From Cytophagales bacterium (GTDB lineage Bacteria; Bacteroidota; Bacteroidia; Cytophagales; Thermoflexibacteraceae): 64,000 bases of DNA. The stretch spans positions 31,855-95,854 of the forward strand of contig JAAFJS010000001.1 in the NCBI GenBank assembly GCA_013298985.1, in the 5' to 3' direction. The translations under genes and the position numbers were made by a program. Below are positions 493 to 44,797 of this stretch, one piece after another. Position 1 is the stretch's first letter. Every line of letters begins with the position of its first letter. Under the pieces are notes generated by a model. That model was not told where the DNA came from, searched no databases, and was given only the letters and a program-made list of their open reading frames with translations.

Positions 493-714
493 ATGAGCAT
501 CAATTTTTTAAAAAAAATATTTCTTTCTGCTATTTTTATTGTTTTTTCGGTAATGAGTGCATTTGCTCAATGTGGACCTATGATGGCAGACCCTTGCCCA
601 CCAGGTGTTACGAGTGAAGGAGTACCTATTGATGGTGGTGCATTTGGCTTGTTGTTATTAGGTGCTATTTACGGCGCAAAGAAAATCTATGACAATAAAA
701 AGAGAGAAAGTTAA
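493..714 (+). CDS. PID-CTERM-like small exosortase target protein (73 aa)
   Basis: Signal peptide MSINFLKKIFLSAIFIVFSVMSAFAQ, short Cys/Pro linker, then VPIDGGAFGLLLLGAIYGAKKIYDNKKRES (PIDGG motif, TM helix, basic tail). Start moved from 394 to 493 because a promoter motif lies at 419-449. Confidence 0.8.
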   Translation: MSINFLKKIFLSAIFIVFSVMSAFAQCGPMMADPCPPGVTSEGVPIDGGAFGLLLLGAIYGAKKIYDNKKRES

Positions 715-1234
715 TCCTGCTCTTCGTTTTTTGGTGGCACTCATTGGCGTTTACCTTTTCATTTATTTTGTGCATCAGTTTTATATTCTTCCTGATGGCA
801 GATTAGACGATTTTCTTAACCATGTATTGGGCGTAGTGAGTCATCAAACCTTGCAAACTTGTGGGGTGGAGTCTTCTCTCAAAATCACAGCTTACGTCCC
901 TATATCGAGCTATGCTGTTTTTCTGGGTAATAGGGCGGCAGTTTACATTGGCTATAACTGCAATGGATTTTTGCTTTATGTACTTTTTGCTTGCTTTATT
1001 TTACTCAGTGCGGGTAACTGGTGGCAGAAGTTAGCTTTTGTAAGCATGGGTATTATCGCCATTTTTATATTGAATATTATCCGCATCATTGCGCTTTTAT
1101 ATACTTTGGCTATCAGACCTGACCTGTTTGACATCAATCACCACTACCTTTTTTCTTTTGTGGTTTATGGATTTATTTTCTTGATGTGGAGATACTGGCT
1201 ACAAAAATATGCTATCAAAACTACAAACAACTGA
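689..1234 (+). CDS. exosortase family protein (XrtX/XrtF-like)
   Basis: Multi-TM protein with exosortase triad-like motifs: Cys in YNCNGFLLY, Arg in LNIIRIIALLY, His in DINHHYLFSFVVYG. Overlaps the upstream gene by 26 nt. Confidence 0.85.
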   Translation: MTIKREKVNPALRFLVALIGVYLFIYFVHQFYILPDGRLDDFLNHVLGVVSHQTLQTCGVESSLKITAYVPISSYAVFLGNRAAVYIGYNCNGFLLYVLFACFILLSAGNWWQKLAFVSMGIIAIFILNIIRIIALLYTLAIRPDLFDINHHYLFSFVVYGFIFLMWRYWLQKYAIKTTNN

Positions 1235-1236
1235 AA

Positions 1237-3087
1237 ATGAAAAGATTAACTACCATATTCCTAAGCTCACTTATTTGCTTACTTTGGGCTTGCGGAACAG
1301 CAACCCAAGAACAAACAAACAAAGATATGAACGACCCAAATTTGCTCAAAGAACAGGTTAGCGACCATAAAATTATTGTCTATCAGGTATTTACACGACT
1401 TTTTGGCAATAAAAATACCACTAACAAACGCTACGGCTCGATAGACGAAAATGGCGTAGGCAAAATGAAGGATTTTGATGAAACTGCCCTCAAAGCCATC
1501 AAAAAAATAGGTTTTACACACATCTGGTTCACTGGTATTATCGAACACGCAACCATGAACAACCATACCAAATTTGGGATTCCTCTTGATGATGCAGACG
1601 TGGTAAAGGGCATTGCTGGCTCGCCCTATGCCATCAAGGATTATTATGATGTAAACCCTGACCTTGCTCTTGATGTGCCAAACAGAATGAAAGAATTTGA
1701 GGAATTGGTCAGCAGAACACATCAAAACGGCATGAAAGTCATCATAGATTTCGTACCAAATCACGTGGCACGTGGCTACAAATCTGATGCAAAACCCGCT
1801 CATATCAAGGACTTAGGCGAAGATGATGACAAAATAAAGCCCTTCGCCCCTCACAATAATTTTTACTATTTGCCCAATACCAAATTTGTCGTTCCCAAAG
1901 AATATCAACTTCCCGATGTGGTAAAAATAAGCACTAAAAACGGCGTTTACGAAGAATCTCCTGCCAAGGCAACAGGCAATGATGTTTTTACGCACGCGCC
2001 AAGTGTAAATGATTGGTTTGAAACCATCAAACTAAACTATGGTGTAGATATTCAGCAGGGCAGAAAAAAATATTTTGATGGAGATAATATTCCTGATACT
2101 TGGCTGAAAATGAAGGAGATATTGCTGTTTTGGGCAGATAAAAAAGTAGATGGTTTTCGTTGCGACATGGCGGAAATGGTACCTGTCGAGTTTTGGAATT
2201 GGGTCATTCCGCAGGTAAAGCAAACAAATCCTGCCATTATTTTTATTGCAGAAATTTACAACCCCAATGAGTACAAAAACTACATTGATACAGGAAAATT
2301 TGATTATTTGTACGACAAAGTAGGGCTTTATGATACCTTGAAAGCAGTGATTCAGCATCGCGCAAGTGCGACTGACATCAAGAAAAACTGGAAACAAACA
2401 GAGGGCTATAACTACCGAATGTTGCGCTTTTTGGAAAATCACGACGAGCAACGCATTGGTAGTAAGGACTTTGCAGGTGAACCCAGAAAAGCAATGCCTG
2501 CCATGGTGGTCAGTGCCTTGCTCAATTCGGGACCTGTGATGATTTATTTTGGGCAGGAAGTGGGCGAAAACGGAAGTGGCGTAGAAGGCTTTGGGGGGGA
2601 AGATGGCAGGACTACGATTTTTGATTATTGGGGCGTGCCTGCTCACCAAAAAATGATGAACGGAGGCAAATTTGACGGCGGTGGACTCAGCGAACCCGAA
2701 AAAGAAATTTTGTACTTTCACACTACTTTGCTCAACTTTTGCACACAAAATGAGGCAATTAGGCTTGGTAGCCTGTACGATTTGCAGTCAGCAAATACAG
2801 CCAACTATGAGATACATAAAGTTTATGCTTTTTTGCGATTTACGGAAAATCAACAACTGCTGATAATCGTTAATTTTGACCCTAATCCACAGTCCAAAAA
2901 TATTCGCTTGCAGATTCCACCCAATGCGCTTGCGCTGATGGGACTTTCTCCAAGTGAAAAATACAAGTTCAAAGAAGTATTTTTGAATGGAAATACAGTG
3001 ATTGGTGAAAACGCTAACAACGGCATGACAGTAAATTTCAAATTATCTCCTTTGGGAAGCTATATTTATAGTATTGAAAAGCAGTAG
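1237..3087 (+). CDS. GH13 alpha-amylase family lipoprotein
   Basis: Lipobox LLWAC; GH13 motifs VIIDFVPNH, DGFRCDMAE, FIAEIY, FLENHDEQR. Confidence 0.93.
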   Translation: MKRLTTIFLSSLICLLWACGTATQEQTNKDMNDPNLLKEQVSDHKIIVYQVFTRLFGNKNTTNKRYGSIDENGVGKMKDFDETALKAIKKIGFTHIWFTGIIEHATMNNHTKFGIPLDDADVVKGIAGSPYAIKDYYDVNPDLALDVPNRMKEFEELVSRTHQNGMKVIIDFVPNHVARGYKSDAKPAHIKDLGEDDDKIKPFAPHNNFYYLPNTKFVVPKEYQLPDVVKISTKNGVYEESPAKATGNDVFTHAPSVNDWFETIKLNYGVDIQQGRKKYFDGDNIPDTWLKMKEILLFWADKKVDGFRCDMAEMVPVEFWNWVIPQVKQTNPAIIFIAEIYNPNEYKNYIDTGKFDYLYDKVGLYDTLKAVIQHRASATDIKKNWKQTEGYNYRMLRFLENHDEQRIGSKDFAGEPRKAMPAMVVSALLNSGPVMIYFGQEVGENGSGVEGFGGEDGRTTIFDYWGVPAHQKMMNGGKFDGGGLSEPEKEILYFHTTLLNFCTQNEAIRLGSLYDLQSANTANYEIHKVYAFLRFTENQQLLIIVNFDPNPQSKNIRLQIPPNALALMGLSPSEKYKFKEVFLNGNTVIGENANNGMTVNFKLSPLGSYIYSIEKQ

Positions 3088-27049: not shown

Positions 27050-30000
27050 CTAATTGATTATCGAGAATGACCCCTTCTTCGGTCGGTTGGTCAGCCCAAA
27101 CTGTATCACGTAGAAATAAACGCCTGTTGGTAGCATTTCGCCATTAATCGTTCCGTCCCAGTCATTTTTATAATTTTTACGTTGTAAAATTTCTTTTCCC
27201 CAACGGTTAAAAATCAAAATACTGTTTTCTGGATAGAGTTCTAAGTTTTTGACAAACAAGAAGTCGTTGAGTCCGTCCCCATTGGGCGTAATCACATCTA
27301 CCACGTCTACATCAGCTTCGTTGTTTACACGCACCAACACGCTATCTACATTTCTACAACCTGCCGCATCTATACCCGTAACGATATAAGTGGTGGTGAT
27401 TCGTGGACTTGCGATTGGCGTAGCCGTTGAGTCCCTGTCCAGTCCTTCCTTGGGTCGCCACACGAAGGAACTTGCCCCCGTAGCTAAGAGCCTGACTCCA
27501 AAACCAATGGTTACAGAGGTGTCTTTGCCTGCATCTACTTTGGGTAATTCTAACAAACGAATAGGTACTGACAAACTGGTATCACTGAAACACTTATTTT
27601 TGGTAATTCGACGATAATAACTTGTCGAATCTGGAATCGGCGGTGCAAGGTCGCGAGCAACTGCACGTGTGATATTTTCCCATTTTTTTCTGTCTTTGGA
27701 AACCTGCCACTGATACTCAAACACGCCTACATTGTCTGTGGGTCTTGTTCCTTTCAAGGTATCAGGCTGAATCCCGCGACAAGCTATTAAACCTGTACCT
27801 ATGATTCTATTGTTGGTAACTGGCTCATTAACAGCAATTAATACCGTATTACTTGTGTCAGAAAAACAAGAGGTTTGTACTATCCTTCTAAATTTGGTGC
27901 TTCGCAACAAATCTGGTGTATAATTTCGTGTGTTGGCAATCGTTTTCCAAGTGCTGTCTGTAACGTTTTGTTGCCAGATATACACATATTTGCCATCACC
28001 GCCTGTGGGCAATGAACCCGCCAAACTGTCTGCTTTTGCGCCCAAACAAAGTTCTTGGTTATCTCTGATGATGTTATTTCTTACTTTGTTTACAAAATCA
28101 ATTTTGATGACATTACTGGTATCTGTTCCGCATTGACGCGCAGTAACGATACGGCGGTAATAAGAAACGCGTGTAATGCCTTGTGGTTTAAAGTTTTGTA
28201 ATGTATCTGCCAATGACCACGTTTTGAGTGAATCCGTAGAAACCTGCCAGCGATATTTGTAGCCGCCTCCGCCACCTATGGGTACGAAGCCAGTGATTTC
28301 TCCTATATTTTGACCTTCGCAAATACCTTGATTGCCACGAATGATGTTGTTTTCAATCCCTGAAACAGTAGTGATGGTAACAACATTGCTGATATTGAGT
28401 TTACAGCCATTATCGACTACACGACGATAAAATAATTTGCCAACTACGCCTCTCTTGGGTGGACCATAATTCAATTTATTCCCCGCCGAGTCTATTCTTG
28501 CCCAGTTGATGGAGTCAGGCGAAGTTTGCCAAATATATTTGAAAAAACCTTTTCCTTCGGGCTTGGTAGCTCGTAAGGAGTCCGCAGGAATCGTGGTACA
28601 GTTTAGCTGATTGAGGCTTGTGATTCGGTTTACACCAAAGGCAAATGCTCTGGCAACCACCAATATATTACTTGTATCTGAATAACACAAACTTCTGACT
28701 ATTCTTCGGAAATAAGTGGTATCCGTAACATTATCAAGCACTAAGCGCAAAGAATCGCCGCGATTATTCCAATTTCTCCTGTCCAAAGAGGTCTGCCAAG
28801 TGTATCGATAATTGCCGCCGCCATTGATAGGAACATTGCCTGTCAGTCTAACTTTGGTCGTATCTCCATCACAATAAACGGGCGTATTTACCTGTATTCT
28901 ATTATTGGCAATCAATGGAAAAATAGCCACCGTAACCGTATTACTTGTATCTTTTTTACAAATACTGGTAACTATTCGGCGGAAATAGGTCGTTTTGGTC
29001 AGCTTGAGTTCAGGATAGAATCGGAGCATGGTATCTGCTTTGGTCGCAGTATCAGCACGCGTCCATGTCTTTTTGTCCAGAGATGCCTGCCATTGGAACT
29101 TATAATTAATGGTATCTTTTTTGGAAGCACCCGTAGTATCCATCAATACAGCTATTTTTGCTAAGGGGCAGATAGATTGGTCTTTGCCCACCACATTTGC
29201 GCCAAAAGGCTTTACAATCGTAACTTTGAGTAGCGCACTGGTATCTTTGAAACAAGATTTATCACTAACGATTCGTCTAAAATACGTGGTTTCTAATAAG
29301 TCGATTGGTTTATAGTTTTCAGAGCCGTCAGCATCTGTCCACTCTTTGAGATTGGTAGTGTATTGCCACTGATACGCATATCGTCCGTCGCCACCTGTAA
29401 CTTTTCGTGTACTTCTGAATGTTTTTGCACTATCGCCCAAGCATATCGTTTGGCTGACACCCACTGTATTATTTGCCAATTTTCGGAAATACTTGATAGT
29501 GATGATGTTACTGGTATCATTTACGCAGCGTCCATCACTGGAAATCCTTCTAAAATAAGTTACCGTATCAGGGAGAGAGCCAATTCGTAAATTTTGTCCA
29601 ATGCCTATATTTGTCCAATTTTTTCTATCAATGCCGCGTTGCCACTGAAAAGTTAATGCTGTTCCCTTCGAGCCTGTGGGTAGCGTACCTTGCAAGGTAG
29701 GGAAAGGTTGCCCTTCGCATATACTTTGGTCTTTGTCAATCCTACTGCCCACTATGCGGCAGGGATTGATAATGATGGTCAGTTTTCGATAAAAAATCAA
29801 ACCAGGCACGCGTGAGTTTGATATTTGTAATAAATATTTTCCTTCTTGCGTATTTTTTGTGGCATCAGCAATGTTCAGCTTGGCTTCGGGGCTTGGCGAA
29901 CTCAGCGAAGTACCCGCCCTAAACCATTGATAGAGATTATTTGCGCCACTCAGCATTATCGAGTAGGCAAATGCGTCGCCCTCGTTAATCGTGATGGTAC

Positions 30001-30580
30001 TGTCTTTGGTCGTACTCATGCCGATTTTGACTGCCACGCCCAGCGTATCCTTTTCCATGCCATCAGGCAAGTAGGTAAACGTAGAAAACTTGCCCACATT
30101 TGGCTCCAAACTGCCAAAACCCAACTGGTTATTATTGACAATCACAGACCCCAGCGTGGTAATCTTGGTTAGGTCAGGAATCGAGGTGAACTGGTTTTTG
30201 CTCAGGTTCAGCGTAGTCAGCTTGGTCAGGGTCGTCGCGATTCTTTCAGGCACTTTGCCCGTGAGCGCGTTATTCGAAAGGTTCAAAACGGTGAGTTCCG
30301 TTAGGTTCGCAATCGAGTCGGATAGCGAGCCAGTCATCTTGACTCCCGAAAGAATCAAACTGGTAACGCGACCACCCGTAAGCGTAACGCCACCCCAAGA
30401 GCTAATAGGCAAGGTCAAGTTCCAAGGCACACTTGCCAATCCCGTCCAAGATGCTCCTTTTGTCCTAAAATACAAGTTTCGCAGTGCCAAAGAATCTCCA
30501 GCCCTGTTTTGTGCTTCTGCTTCACCAGCAAACGCACCTATCAAGAAAATAAATAATAAGATAAATCTATACTTTTTCAC
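27050..30580 (-). CDS. large secreted protein: LRR N-terminus, eight Ig-like repeats, gliding-motility-type (T9SS type B) C-terminal domain
   Basis: LRR-like LTVLNLSNNALTGKVPERI; repeated CxG...YxYxWQxSxDxxxW...YFRRIVxxxCxxDTSN; C-term VVDVITPNGDGLNDFLFVKNLELYPENSILIFNRWGKEILQRKNYKNDWDGTINGEMLPTGVYFYVI. Confidence 0.93.
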   Translation of the reverse strand: MKKYRFILLFIFLIGAFAGEAEAQNRAGDSLALRNLYFRTKGASWTGLASVPWNLTLPISSWGGVTLTGGRVTSLILSGVKMTGSLSDSIANLTELTVLNLSNNALTGKVPERIATTLTKLTTLNLSKNQFTSIPDLTKITTLGSVIVNNNQLGFGSLEPNVGKFSTFTYLPDGMEKDTLGVAVKIGMSTTKDSTITINEGDAFAYSIMLSGANNLYQWFRAGTSLSSPSPEAKLNIADATKNTQEGKYLLQISNSRVPGLIFYRKLTIIINPCRIVGSRIDKDQSICEGQPFPTLQGTLPTGSKGTALTFQWQRGIDRKNWTNIGIGQNLRIGSLPDTVTYFRRISSDGRCVNDTSNIITIKYFRKLANNTVGVSQTICLGDSAKTFRSTRKVTGGDGRYAYQWQYTTNLKEWTDADGSENYKPIDLLETTYFRRIVSDKSCFKDTSALLKVTIVKPFGANVVGKDQSICPLAKIAVLMDTTGASKKDTINYKFQWQASLDKKTWTRADTATKADTMLRFYPELKLTKTTYFRRIVTSICKKDTSNTVTVAIFPLIANNRIQVNTPVYCDGDTTKVRLTGNVPINGGGNYRYTWQTSLDRRNWNNRGDSLRLVLDNVTDTTYFRRIVRSLCYSDTSNILVVARAFAFGVNRITSLNQLNCTTIPADSLRATKPEGKGFFKYIWQTSPDSINWARIDSAGNKLNYGPPKRGVVGKLFYRRVVDNGCKLNISNVVTITTVSGIENNIIRGNQGICEGQNIGEITGFVPIGGGGGYKYRWQVSTDSLKTWSLADTLQNFKPQGITRVSYYRRIVTARQCGTDTSNVIKIDFVNKVRNNIIRDNQELCLGAKADSLAGSLPTGGDGKYVYIWQQNVTDSTWKTIANTRNYTPDLLRSTKFRRIVQTSCFSDTSNTVLIAVNEPVTNNRIIGTGLIACRGIQPDTLKGTRPTDNVGVFEYQWQVSKDRKKWENITRAVARDLAPPIPDSTSYYRRITKNKCFSDTSLSVPIRLLELPKVDAGKDTSVTIGFGVRLLATGASSFVWRPKEGLDRDSTATPIASPRITTTYIVTGIDAAGCRNVDSVLVRVNNEADVDVVDVITPNGDGLNDFLFVKNLELYPENSILIFNRWGKEILQRKNYKNDWDGTINGEMLPTGVYFYVIQFGLTNRPKKGSFSIIN
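27540..29730 (-). repeat. eight tandem ~90-100 aa Ig-like modules encoded in the T9SS type B protein
   Basis: Manual alignment of ICxGxx...YxWQxSxDxxxW...YFRRIVxxxCxxDTSNxxxI units. Confidence 0.85.
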
Positions 30581-40018: not shown

Positions 40019-43000
40019 ATGAAAGGAAATATTTACATACTTTTTTTATTTTTTATTACTGCTCCGCTATTTGCACAACCTAATGCTCGCATGGAAAATC
40101 TCCATGCTCCTGATAAACTCGTTCTGAAATTAAAAGCACACCTTTCCAAAAACAACAATCTCAAACAGCAAACTCTTGCCCAGCTACAAAGCGCAGACTA
40201 CCTAAGCCACGTAATGCCTGTTTTCTCGCAAGGCAAATCAAACGCTTCTGACTATTTTGCCAGTTTTTATGAAGTACAACTCAAACAAGGCGAAACCATA
40301 GAAAGCGTAAGCAAACGCCTCTATGCCAGTAATTTAGTGGAAAGTATAGAAAAAATAGGCTATTATCAATCACTTGCTCCGCCTTTACCCTTACCACCTT
40401 TTGCGCTGCCACCGTTTCTTCCTAATGATTATTTTTATAAGGAAGGATTGCTTTGGGGACATGAAAAAGCAAAAGTGTATGAGGGCTGGGAATTGAGCAA
40501 GGGAGATACTAATATAGTGATTGGTATTATTGACGATTATGTCCAGACCAATCCTAATCCTAATAATCCTGACGCAATGCACGAGGAATTTGTAGGGCAG
40601 ATGCAATACAACAGAAAGGAAAGGTACGGAATCCCTAAATTTGATGATGACGGCAATGGCTTTGTAGATGACTCTTTGGGGTATGACTTTGTTGATAGAA
40701 ACGATAAAATCTCAGGCTGGCATGGCACCACCGTTGCAGGGATTTCTTCTGCAAAAGTAAACAATAAAATAGGAGTGGCAGGCATTGGTTTTAATTGTCG
40801 ATTTATGCCTATCAAGGTCATTCCAGCCCCCGCCTTGGGCAAAGAGGAAATGTTCAGTAGCCTAAACCTGATACGTGCCATCAAGTATGCCGCGGATAAT
40901 GGCTGTACTATTATCAATATTTCCCAACGAAAAGTGGGTAGTGGTTTTTCCCAATTAGAGCAAGACATCATTAACTATGCCACGCGCAAGGGAGCTTTGG
41001 TCATTGCCGCCGCAGGGAATTTTGTGGGGGCGTTTGACGAATACCCTGCTTCCTATGATAACGTATTATCCGTAGTTGCCTCCAATGCAAATGATAGAGT
41101 CATTGGCTCTAATAGCAATTTTATAGATTTGGCAGCACCTGGTATAAATGTTTGGACTACCCACATTTATCCCTCCCCCCGCAACTATGTAATGCACGAA
41201 GGCTCCTCTTTTGCCGCCCCTTTTGTAGCTGGTGCGGCGGGCTTGGTCAAAGCCAGATTTCCAGATTTTACCTCTTTGCAGATAGCCGAGCAACTGCGCG
41301 CTACCGCAGATGATATATACGGGGTCAAAGAAAATACAGATTTTGTCGAAAAATACGGCAAGGGAAGGATAAATGTATTCAAGGCATTACAGGGGCGAAA
41401 TGTAGCCCAATCGGTGAAAGCACAAAATATGAAATTTAAGAATCGATTTGGCGATTATGCCTTTTATGATGATACCGTTTCTATCATTTGTGATTTTATA
41501 AACTATTTGAAACCAAGCACTGCTGCACTCAAAGCAACGCTAAGTTCTAATTCGCCTTATGTTACCATTATCAAAAACACAGTTCAAATAGGCGCATTAA
41601 AAACCTTAGATTCTGTAAGTAATGTAAAAAATCCATTTTTGGTGTATCTCAATCCAGCCACTCCGCCTTCCACTACTATTAAGTTTAGAATTGGTTTTGA
41701 AGACAAGGGATACAATGATTATCAATATTTTATGATAACCACCTCCCCCAACTACTTGGATATGTACCCCAACGACCTCAGCTTAAGCATTGCGGCAGAT
41801 GGACGAATGGGCATGGTAGGGCAAGATGGCAAAGATGGCATTGGGATTCTCTGGCAAGGAAAACAGATGCTTACGAATGCAGGCTTGATGATTAGTATGG
41901 GGAATAGCGTCAATCTGCCTTTTAATGTTGCCAATAGCGTATTTGTCAATCAGACTACCCGCGCCAATGATTTTAGCCCAGTGAAGCACAGTAAGTTCAT
42001 TGACAAGGATTTGCAGTCTATTACCGCAACATCAACTTTCGCTGACGTAGAAAAAATAGGTTTAGAAATCAAGCAAACAGTCAAAGGGCGCATCAATACG
42101 CCCCACCAGCAATATGTATTGGTAGAATATGAAATAGAAAACAAAAGCGGTACATTCATAGATAGTTTGTCCGTTGGTTTGTTTGCTGACTGGGACATTG
42201 AGGGTGGTAATGCTAATCTTGCAGACTGGGACGCAAAGGGTAAGTTTGGTTATGTTTTTAAGCGCGACGTGTCTAATTACTTGGGTATCAAAGTTATCAG
42301 CGAAGTACCCCAATACTATCCAATAGACAAAAATACAAATGATGGAAAAATTAATTTTACTGATGGTTTTTCTGATGCCGAGAAATTTATTGCACTCAAT
42401 AATGGCTTAGACAAAAAGCAAGCAGGTTTTAATACACCAAGTAGTGATGTGGCGCAAGTAGTGAGTGCCAAAATAAAGAACTTGGCGCATGGTCAGCGTA
42501 AAAAAATCACTTTTGCTATTTTGGCAGGGAGCAGCCTCGATGAGCTACAAAAAGCGGCAATACAGGCTAACATCATGGCGAATCCTCATTCATCAAAGAG
42601 CAAAAAACCAATCGTTTCTCCCTTAGTTTGCAAAGACAAAATTATGTACGTAAGACCTTCTAACGGCACGAAGTTCAGGTTTTATGAATCTCCTAACTTG
42701 AAAACACCAAAAGAAGAAGGCGAAAAACTGGAAGTAAGTCTGGCAGATACAGCCAATACATTCTATATCAGCAATATAGATTCTTTGGTAGAAAGCGATT
42801 TACTCAAATATCAGTTCAAAGTACATGAAACCCAAGCAAGTTTTGTAGCAATTGATTCATTGAATATCATAGATTCCTCAACCATTCATTTTTATGACAA
42901 AAGCATCAAACCTGTAAAATGGGCTTGGGATTTTGGCTACAAATCAAAAATAGATACTTTGCAAAACCCCAAACACAGGTTTGATAGTGTAGGACTCTAT

Positions 43001-44797
43001 ACCGTAACACTCACTGTTACAGATAGTAGCGGTTGTCAAACTTCTTTTAGCAAAAATATCAGGATAGTGCGTTTGGTGAGAAGCCCTGTACCTATACTCT
43101 ATGACTACGATATTTTTACGTGTAGAACTTCACCCGTTACCATTACGCCGTCCAACGGAAAGCGTTTCAATTTTTATACCTCTCTGCCCTTGCGAAATTC
43201 AGTACATCAGGGACGCTTTTTTACTTTGACAGACCTCAGCGTAAAGGAAGTTTACATTACCAGCATAGACTCCTCTTTTGAGAGCCTACCCGCGACCGTA
43301 AGCATCAAACGCGGGAATTTGAAGGCAAATTTTAACTATTCGCCTATGGCAGATACCATAGTAAACAACGAAATATTCTTTACTGACCGTTCTACAAGCA
43401 AAGAGGCGATTGTGAAATGGGAGTGGTATTTTGGCGATAGTGCTTCAATAGATAGAAATAAAAATCCAGTGCGCCGTTTTAAGAAGCAGGGTGTTTATAA
43501 GGTAATATTGAGGGTTACAGATTTTACAGGCTGTACGGATACAATTTCTAAGTTTTTTAAAATAGGAAATAAAGGATTGAAACCTCTTATCACAAATCAG
43601 GTAGTGTGTAAAGGACAAGAAATCACCTTAACACCTGCCAATGGAAAAATATTTAATTTTTATACTGTGCCACCACCCAGTAACCCTATTTTCCAAGGGC
43701 AGAGTTACAGTTTTGTTCCTTCGGCAAGCCAAGAACTTTATATCACCAGTGCAGATTCTATTCTCGAAAGTGATGCCCAAGTAGTAAAAATAGAGGTAAA
43801 TGAGGCTGTGGCTAATTTTGACGCACCTACGGAAATATTACTTTATCGCAATAATAACTTGGCGAGTTTCAGTGATTTGAGCAAAAATGCAGTAAGTTGG
43901 CAATGGAACTTTGGTGATGGCTCTCCTATCGCCACCGCAAGAAATCCTGCTTACTTGTATAAAAAACAAGGTGAATATACGGTAACGCTTTCTATCAGAG
44001 ATGTTTACGGCTGTACGGCAAGTGCCAGCAAAAAGATAAAAATCATCAATAGAGCAAATCCGCCACAGATGCCAAGCCCCACCGTTTGCAAAGATGCCGA
44101 AGTGGTTTTACAACCCCAAGGAGGTTCGCTATTTAGATTTTATGAAATTTATCCTTCTTCTGTGGTCGCATTTATAGGAAAAGCATGGAATTTGGGAAAA
44201 ATACGCCAAAATAAAACCTATTATGTTACTTCCATAGATTCCTTGCACGAAAGCGAAGCCACCAAAATAGACATCAAAATAGATGAAATTAGTGCAAACT
44301 TCGAGATAAAATATACAGCAGAAAACGCACTCGTAGGCGATACCATCAGTTTTAATCCATTAGCTACCAATGCCATCGCTTGGGAATGGAATATGGGTGA
44401 CGGCAATGCTATCTTTCGTTCTAATCCTTCGTACATCTATCGAATTGCAGGAAGCTATACTATCAAGCTAAATATTGGCAATGCTACAGGCTGTACCGCT
44501 TCCCAAACCAAGACCATCACCGTTAGGGAACGCACCAATATTCCTGCCAATGCACGCATCTATCTTTACCCAAACCCCACCGAAGGGGAAGTAAGGGTGG
44601 AAATCAGTAGCCCAAAGCCAACGCCCGTTTATGTAGAACTCTACAATGTGCTGGGGCAGAAACTGGAAGGTTTTACCCAAGAAATGGTCAAAAACGAAAT
44701 TTTCAAGTATTCCCTTACTGGGCGCAACAAGGGCATTTATTTGCTACGATTTACCTTTGATGGAGAAACATTCATTAGAAAAGTGATTTACGAATAG
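40019..44797 (+). CDS. S8 subtilisin-like serine peptidase with repeated PKD/Ig-like modules and T9SS type A C-terminal domain
   Basis: Asp VIGIIDDYVQ, His GWHGTTVAGISSA, Ser HEGSSFAAPFVAGAAGLVKA; PKD WxWDFG motifs; C-term IYLYPNPTEGEVRVEI...GIYLLRFTFDGETFIRKVIYE. Confidence 0.95.
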   Translation: MKGNIYILFLFFITAPLFAQPNARMENLHAPDKLVLKLKAHLSKNNNLKQQTLAQLQSADYLSHVMPVFSQGKSNASDYFASFYEVQLKQGETIESVSKRLYASNLVESIEKIGYYQSLAPPLPLPPFALPPFLPNDYFYKEGLLWGHEKAKVYEGWELSKGDTNIVIGIIDDYVQTNPNPNNPDAMHEEFVGQMQYNRKERYGIPKFDDDGNGFVDDSLGYDFVDRNDKISGWHGTTVAGISSAKVNNKIGVAGIGFNCRFMPIKVIPAPALGKEEMFSSLNLIRAIKYAADNGCTIINISQRKVGSGFSQLEQDIINYATRKGALVIAAAGNFVGAFDEYPASYDNVLSVVASNANDRVIGSNSNFIDLAAPGINVWTTHIYPSPRNYVMHEGSSFAAPFVAGAAGLVKARFPDFTSLQIAEQLRATADDIYGVKENTDFVEKYGKGRINVFKALQGRNVAQSVKAQNMKFKNRFGDYAFYDDTVSIICDFINYLKPSTAALKATLSSNSPYVTIIKNTVQIGALKTLDSVSNVKNPFLVYLNPATPPSTTIKFRIGFEDKGYNDYQYFMITTSPNYLDMYPNDLSLSIAADGRMGMVGQDGKDGIGILWQGKQMLTNAGLMISMGNSVNLPFNVANSVFVNQTTRANDFSPVKHSKFIDKDLQSITATSTFADVEKIGLEIKQTVKGRINTPHQQYVLVEYEIENKSGTFIDSLSVGLFADWDIEGGNANLADWDAKGKFGYVFKRDVSNYLGIKVISEVPQYYPIDKNTNDGKINFTDGFSDAEKFIALNNGLDKKQAGFNTPSSDVAQVVSAKIKNLAHGQRKKITFAILAGSSLDELQKAAIQANIMANPHSSKSKKPIVSPLVCKDKIMYVRPSNGTKFRFYESPNLKTPKEEGEKLEVSLADTANTFYISNIDSLVESDLLKYQFKVHETQASFVAIDSLNIIDSSTIHFYDKSIKPVKWAWDFGYKSKIDTLQNPKHRFDSVGLYTVTLTVTDSSGCQTSFSKNIRIVRLVRSPVPILYDYDIFTCRTSPVTITPSNGKRFNFYTSLPLRNSVHQGRFFTLTDLSVKEVYITSIDSSFESLPATVSIKRGNLKANFNYSPMADTIVNNEIFFTDRSTSKEAIVKWEWYFGDSASIDRNKNPVRRFKKQGVYKVILRVTDFTGCTDTISKFFKIGNKGLKPLITNQVVCKGQEITLTPANGKIFNFYTVPPPSNPIFQGQSYSFVPSASQELYITSADSILESDAQVVKIEVNEAVANFDAPTEILLYRNNNLASFSDLSKNAVSWQWNFGDGSPIATARNPAYLYKKQGEYTVTLSIRDVYGCTASASKKIKIINRANPPQMPSPTVCKDAEVVLQPQGGSLFRFYEIYPSSVVAFIGKAWNLGKIRQNKTYYVTSIDSLHESEATKIDIKIDEISANFEIKYTAENALVGDTISFNPLATNAIAWEWNMGDGNAIFRSNPSYIYRIAGSYTIKLNIGNATGCTASQTKTITVRERTNIPANARIYLYPNPTEGEVRVEISSPKPTPVYVELYNVLGQKLEGFTQEMVKNEIFKYSLTGRNKGIYLLRFTFDGETFIRKVIYE
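42626..44525 (+). repeat. four ~485 bp tandem two-domain repeats (CxxFxFYxxP...YITSIDSxxES module + PKD) in the S8 peptidase
   Basis: Units start near 42626, 43115, 43602 and 44084, by manual alignment. Confidence 0.8.

Follow-up and report, generated by a model that had tools for sequence, protein, structure and literature searches.

An overlapping PID-CTERM and exosortase X-like gene pair in a Cytophagales bacterium, and the linkage of PID-CTERM genes to type IX secretion cargo

In the PEP-CTERM/EpsH systems, the targets carry a signal peptide and a tail composed of a short motif, a transmembrane (TM) segment and basic residues, and the enzyme is of the Cys-Arg-His type. The gene pair described here is built alike. 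PEP-CTERM targets are often numerous per genome (PMC3237569); they have real mature domains and the motif PEP, whereas the present target has PID. A similar gene adjacency is found in the rhombosortase/GlyGly-CTERM systems, in which single-target genomes tend to encode the target beside the enzyme (PMC3237569), but rhombosortase is a rhomboid serine protease unrelated to the exosortase treated here. Superfamily and phylum are shared with the XrtF system (TIGR04128, TIGR04127; Fjoh_1448/1449 of F. johnsoniae). This system joins an exosortase to an associated protein, whereas our locus joins an exosortase to a target, and the enzyme scores under the XrtF cut-off. In F. johnsoniae, deletions in the XrtF system affect surface colonisation and biofilm as do mutations of the type IX secretion system (T9SS) (PMC10936215). 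The T9SS type A sorting domain and PorU likewise serve C-terminal sorting and attachment of Bacteroidota surface proteins. They are the genomic partner of PID-CTERM genes with no homology to them, and the peptide encoded here has no T9SS domain.

The best matches of our two proteins are the first two members of a set of three NCBIfam families, XrtX, PID-CTERM and XrtX-associated membrane protein (NF046081, NF046080 and NF046082). Tiny targets and gene adjacency are typical of this system and occur here too; the differences are a score 2 bits short, a third gene that was not found, an overlap of the two genes and an only PID-CTERM gene that does not lie behind a T9SS cargo gene. PID-CTERM-type tails and Bacteroidota exosortases, named as known families in a sequence-only reading of this DNA, are both catalogued in NCBIfam.

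The window, that is the whole 64-kb stretch of DNA analysed, belongs to a 6.06 Mb genome of the order Cytophagales (383 contigs, 98% complete). The features of the locus are as follows.

419-449, + strand: promoter-like motif TTG-N20-TATCTTTG of Bacteroidota type, 43 nt before the first ATG (from the sequence)
493-714, + strand: PID-CTERM protein, 73 aa, putative exosortase target (NF046080 match; tail under purifying selection)
493-567, + strand: signal peptide, codons 1-25, with predicted cleavage FA/Q, that is FA followed by Gln at +1 (inspection, hydropathy)
568-624, + strand: mature linker QCGPMMADPCPPGVTSEGV, 19 aa, with a Cys pair and a [DG]PxP motif (from the sequence)
625-639, + strand: PIDGG sorting motif, with P, D, G and G invariant across 28 family members
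640-711, + strand: TM segment (about residues 50-62) and basic tail (about residues 63-73) (inspection, hydropathy, alignment)
689-714, + strand: overlap of both genes, 26 nt (20 nt at the corresponding place in Thermoflexibacter ruber)
689-1234, + strand: exosortase X-like protein, 181 aa (NF046081 and TIGR04178 matches, predicted structure)
959-961, + strand: Cys91 codon in a CNG motif, presumed nucleophile, invariant in 30 and in 46 sequences
1082-1084, + strand: Arg132 codon, invariant in 30 and in 46 sequences
1139-1141, + strand: His151 codon in an NH motif, invariant in 30 and in 46 sequences

The 73-aa ORF at 493-714(+) consists of a signal peptide, a 19-residue linker and a PIDGG-TM-basic tail, just as the sequence-only reading had it. 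Signal peptide and motif-TM-basic tail are recognised by inspection and hydropathy, Gln at +1 agrees with the Bacteroidetes Q-rule (PMC5837995, PMC10653852), and residues 44-68 of the 73 match the C-terminal domain NF046080 (PID_CTERM, NCBIfam) with 37.3 bits, above the cut-off of 26. Over 21 tail codons, the differences from the T. ruber copy number 3, 3 and 15 at codon positions 1, 2 and 3, a distribution by which the tail is judged to be under purifying selection between the two species. Because the PID_CTERM score exceeds its cut-off and the tail is under such selection, the short ORF can be taken as a real gene; score, selection and conservation together rule out a chance reading frame. 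The promoter motif that both genes were proposed to share is present (TTG at 419-421, TATCTTTG at 442-449, with a suitable spacing to the ATG), but it is weak evidence since such motifs are common: a raw count over both strands of the 64 kb, without shuffle control, gives about 41 occurrences of TTG-N17-23-TANNTTTG.

The first in-frame ATG of the exosortase gene is at 689, with an alternative GTG start at 662, and the proposed 26-nt overlap is confirmed. Profile searches, which had been suggested as a check for both proteins, place the enzyme in the exosortase/archaeosortase family (TIGR04178, 40.5 bits, cut-off 23); it also has the features of this family, several TM segments and the conserved Cys, Arg and His. 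These residues had been described as intact, and Cys91, Arg132 and His151 are indeed present and invariant in 30 relatives. The Pfam model Exosortase_EpsH matches with 18.6 bits, below its cut-off of 25.7. Among the exosortase subfamilies XrtX fits best, 88 bits ahead of the second, XrtF (79.4 bits, cut-off 90), although the score of 167.7 bits against NF046081 (exosortase X) lies narrowly under the curated cut-off of 170. The T. ruber orthologue, 57% identical, passes with 182.8 bits. Being 2 bits short and yet the counterpart of a passing protein, the window enzyme is on its profile scores filed as an XrtX-like exosortase and not as a formal XrtX. Its AlphaFold model is confident, with a mean pLDDT of 91.9 and a pTM of 0.85. 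Searches of solved structures returned no sequence relative, and the best fold match had an E of only 0.35, so that they supplied no structural template.

The comparison genome, T. ruber DSM 9560, is placed in the same genus as the host, which makes the host a Thermoflexibacter or a near relative, and carries the same overlapping pair, with 20 nt of overlap. Such an overlap is seen in the host genus only; elsewhere the genes are separated by a gap of about 15-350 nt or lie apart. Upstream of the window pair is a tRNA-Met gene on the opposite strand (268-342) and downstream a GH13 alpha-amylase-family gene (1237-3087), the start of which resembles a lipoprotein signal by inspection; neither neighbour offers a functional clue. 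No exopolysaccharide (EPS) gene was found beside the pair. A genome-wide search gave one XrtX gene and one PID-CTERM gene, so that target and XrtX-like enzyme occur in the same genome, and no further PID-CTERM gene beyond signal-peptide-like noise. The XrtX-associated membrane protein was found neither beside the pair nor genome-wide at E 0.01 or better with NF046082, a model that is weak on divergent members (several true neighbours score about 23-59 bits, and one of them is unmatched). The term 'minimal' used in the sequence-only reading is apt in so far as the genome search did not turn up this third gene; a tiny target, by comparison, is the family norm. The host encodes 62 T9SS type A proteins, but no T9SS gene was found beside its PID-CTERM gene. 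In T. ruber one PID-CTERM gene overlaps the end of a T9SS cargo gene, and among six inspected loci with host relatives of the PID-linked cargo of T. ruber none has a PID-CTERM gene behind it. As the sole PID-CTERM gene of its genome, with neither a T9SS neighbour nor the usual third gene, the window pair is exceptional in its family. Elsewhere in the window, T9SS tails are found on a subtilisin-like protein (type A, 40019-44797) and on another protein (type B, 27050-30580), neither of them encoded close to the PID-CTERM gene.

Across 292 genomes of the order, XrtX-like enzymes were detected in 98 and PID-CTERM proteins in 81. Both occur together in 79 genomes, PID-CTERM alone in 2, XrtX-like alone in 19 and neither in 192 (Fisher P about 4e-50, kinship of genomes ignored). 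This co-distribution and the presence of the pair in T. ruber show that both genes are conserved together in related genomes. A PID-CTERM gene lies directly upstream of XrtX on the same strand at 31 or more of 114 XrtX places; among 76 loci from named records, it adjoins XrtX in 45. In other genera, a gene of the NF046082 family is usually next downstream of XrtX; at six individually noted loci and others it encodes a membrane protein of 150-180 aa related to NF046082, which mostly scores well under the cut-off and in some cases matches the XrtF-associated family as well.

A target with almost no mature domain had been considered unusual, a view that the survey does not bear out: the median PID-CTERM protein is 71 aa long and the median linker 18 residues, so smallness is the rule and the uniqueness of the window target is ruled out. 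The linkers are rich in Pro, Gly, Ala and Thr, and 60 of 101 distinct linkers contain the [DG]PxP motif compared with 20.4 +/- 3.8 in shuffled linkers, kinship again being ignored. The Cys/Pro linker of the sequence-only reading holds in part. The window linker has two Cys and paired Cys recur in the family, but the T. ruber linker (QGSDPVPPGAEAE) has none, which rules out a conserved Cys linker as a necessary feature within the genus. Cys counts are even (0, 2 or 4) in 171 proteins and odd (1 or 3) in 5, which suggests that linker cysteines may be used in pairs, as a disulfide or otherwise. Many linkers in the loci from outside the order end in C[WF]PPPC[VI]PIDGG. Large proteins can carry a PID tail too, since two Hymenobacter-group proteins of about 975 aa (L121:4118-7036 and L122:4402-7341) end in a PID-CTERM-like tail; the former is an MSEP-CTERM family protein in a profile scan of L121 only.

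The neighbours of the PID-CTERM genes provide the clearest pattern. Of 110 distinct PID-CTERM genes of the order, 103 have an upstream ORF on the same strand, and the curated model TIGR04183 finds a T9SS type A sorting domain in 79 of these 103, where a T9SS-tailed candidate was preferred over the longest if a locus offered several. A separate profile of our own finds T9SS tails upstream in 69 of the 110 and downstream in 3; its calls were then checked with TIGR04183. By this profile, 20 of the 27 genera and 10 of the 12 families show the link; its training on Hymenobacter tails lowers its sensitivity elsewhere. The upstream neighbours are usually large proteins, at a median gap of 82 nt, and the counts depend on small-ORF start codons chosen by rule and on phylogenetically non-independent loci. 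T9SS type A proteins number 62-150 in the genomes checked, which for an assumed total of 4,000-5,000 genes is a few per cent at most. Outside the order, a separate sample of 27 PID-CTERM genes had 20 upstream neighbours, 16 of which were identified as T9SS proteins by TIGR04183, and among 38 further PID-CTERM genes our profile found 18 T9SS proteins upstream and 0 downstream. The linkage is strong, directional, repeated outside the order and far above the genomic share of T9SS proteins. Nine noted loci, among them the T. ruber one, and about 70 more have a PID-CTERM gene directly behind a large T9SS cargo gene; inspected cargo proteins carry fibronectin III, galactose-binding-like, LRR or DUF5122 repeats. 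Some PID-CTERM genes lie in polysaccharide clusters and not behind T9SS cargo. In one genome (G250), 12 PID-CTERM genes were observed, nearly all behind large proteins, many of which have divergent T9SS-like tails. In the open-access papers searched, no description was found of XrtX, of PID-CTERM or of a link between them and T9SS.

Gene pairing, intact catalytic residues, family membership and selection can be read from the sequence; for cleavage and attachment, known exosortase and Bacteroidota biology suggests a plausible chemistry. As in known families, the 73-aa peptide would be exported by Sec, and signal peptidase I would expose Gln26, which is probably turned into pyroglutamate. The C-terminal helix would keep the peptide in the inner membrane until Cys91 of XrtX, with Arg132 and His151, cuts near PIDGG and the peptide of roughly 20 residues is passed by its new C-terminus to an acceptor, for which a lipid or a glycan is a candidate. 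The carrier-linked peptide may then assist the display of large T9SS cargo at the cell surface, a step suggested by the gene linkage, since in most cases the gene of a PID-CTERM peptide in this family immediately follows a cargo gene. The host's only such peptide would serve one or several of the 62 T9SS proteins in trans, or have a role by itself. The T9SS cargo of P. gingivalis is described as tethered by a glycolipid (PMC7468200). Of the candidate roles that the sequence-only reading had offered (surface peptide, processed signal, lipid or glycan carrier anchor), a carrier or anchor fits the T9SS linkage best. In F. johnsoniae, the row of phenotypes recorded for the xrtF and fjoh_1449 deletions is also that of the porU and porZ deletions (PMC10936215), which by analogy would lend independent support to a T9SS-accessory role, with the reservation that the enzyme there is XrtF and not XrtX. 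Against such a role stand the window PID-CTERM gene, which has no T9SS neighbour, the six inspected cargo relatives of the host, which have no PID-CTERM gene behind them, the PID-CTERM genes that lie in polysaccharide clusters, and the XrtX score just below the cut-off. On balance we lean towards a two-gene XrtX-type system in which XrtX cuts the tail and joins the peptide to a carrier, the product serving as an aid to the surface display of T9SS cargo.

An EPS-linked exosortase system of the PEP-CTERM kind, with the T9SS neighbours reflecting a shared surface regulon and no direct cooperation, is conceivable but appears rather unlikely. Wza/Wzc-type and glycosyltransferase genes do flank XrtX in three families, in one genus a PID-CTERM gene has a Wzc-like kinase on one side and a polysaccharide ABC permease on the other, and classical exosortases are paired with EPS clusters. 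The T9SS link, however, is far commoner, runs in one direction (upstream, median 82 nt) and is also found away from EPS loci, and the window pair itself lies beside no EPS gene.

The single PID-CTERM gene of the host, its missing T9SS neighbour and the unfound membrane protein could also mark a relic of fading function that has lost this partner and its T9SS-linked copies; this is improbable given the intact catalytic residues, the purifying selection on the tail between the two species and the overlap retained in both. That the linker is freed by XrtX as a secreted signalling peptide is the reading to which we assign the smallest probability. Its small size, variable sequence, even Cys numbers (171 even, 5 odd) and lack of a globular domain would suit such a signal, but no sensor or transporter family recurs beside XrtX across genera, the composition is that of a Pro/Gly linker, and for sortase-like enzymes of this type, conjugation of the product is known or has been proposed.

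By itself, the window pair is an unremarkable example of a system that is catalogued but unstudied. Most of the interest lies in the linkage survey, which provides a first functional lead for XrtX/PID-CTERM by tying exosortase-processed peptides to T9SS cargo. With accessory display as the preferred reading, there is about an even chance that each large T9SS cargo gene has its own exosortase-processed and often Cys-paired peptide as a surface anchor or docking piece, the window pair being a stand-alone, trans-acting version. The linkage allows two questions to be tested together, namely the purpose of exosortases in the Bacteroidota and the display of T9SS cargo outside Porphyromonas. If true, a dedicated pairing of cargo and peptide would couple two sorting systems of the Bacteroidota that have been thought separate.
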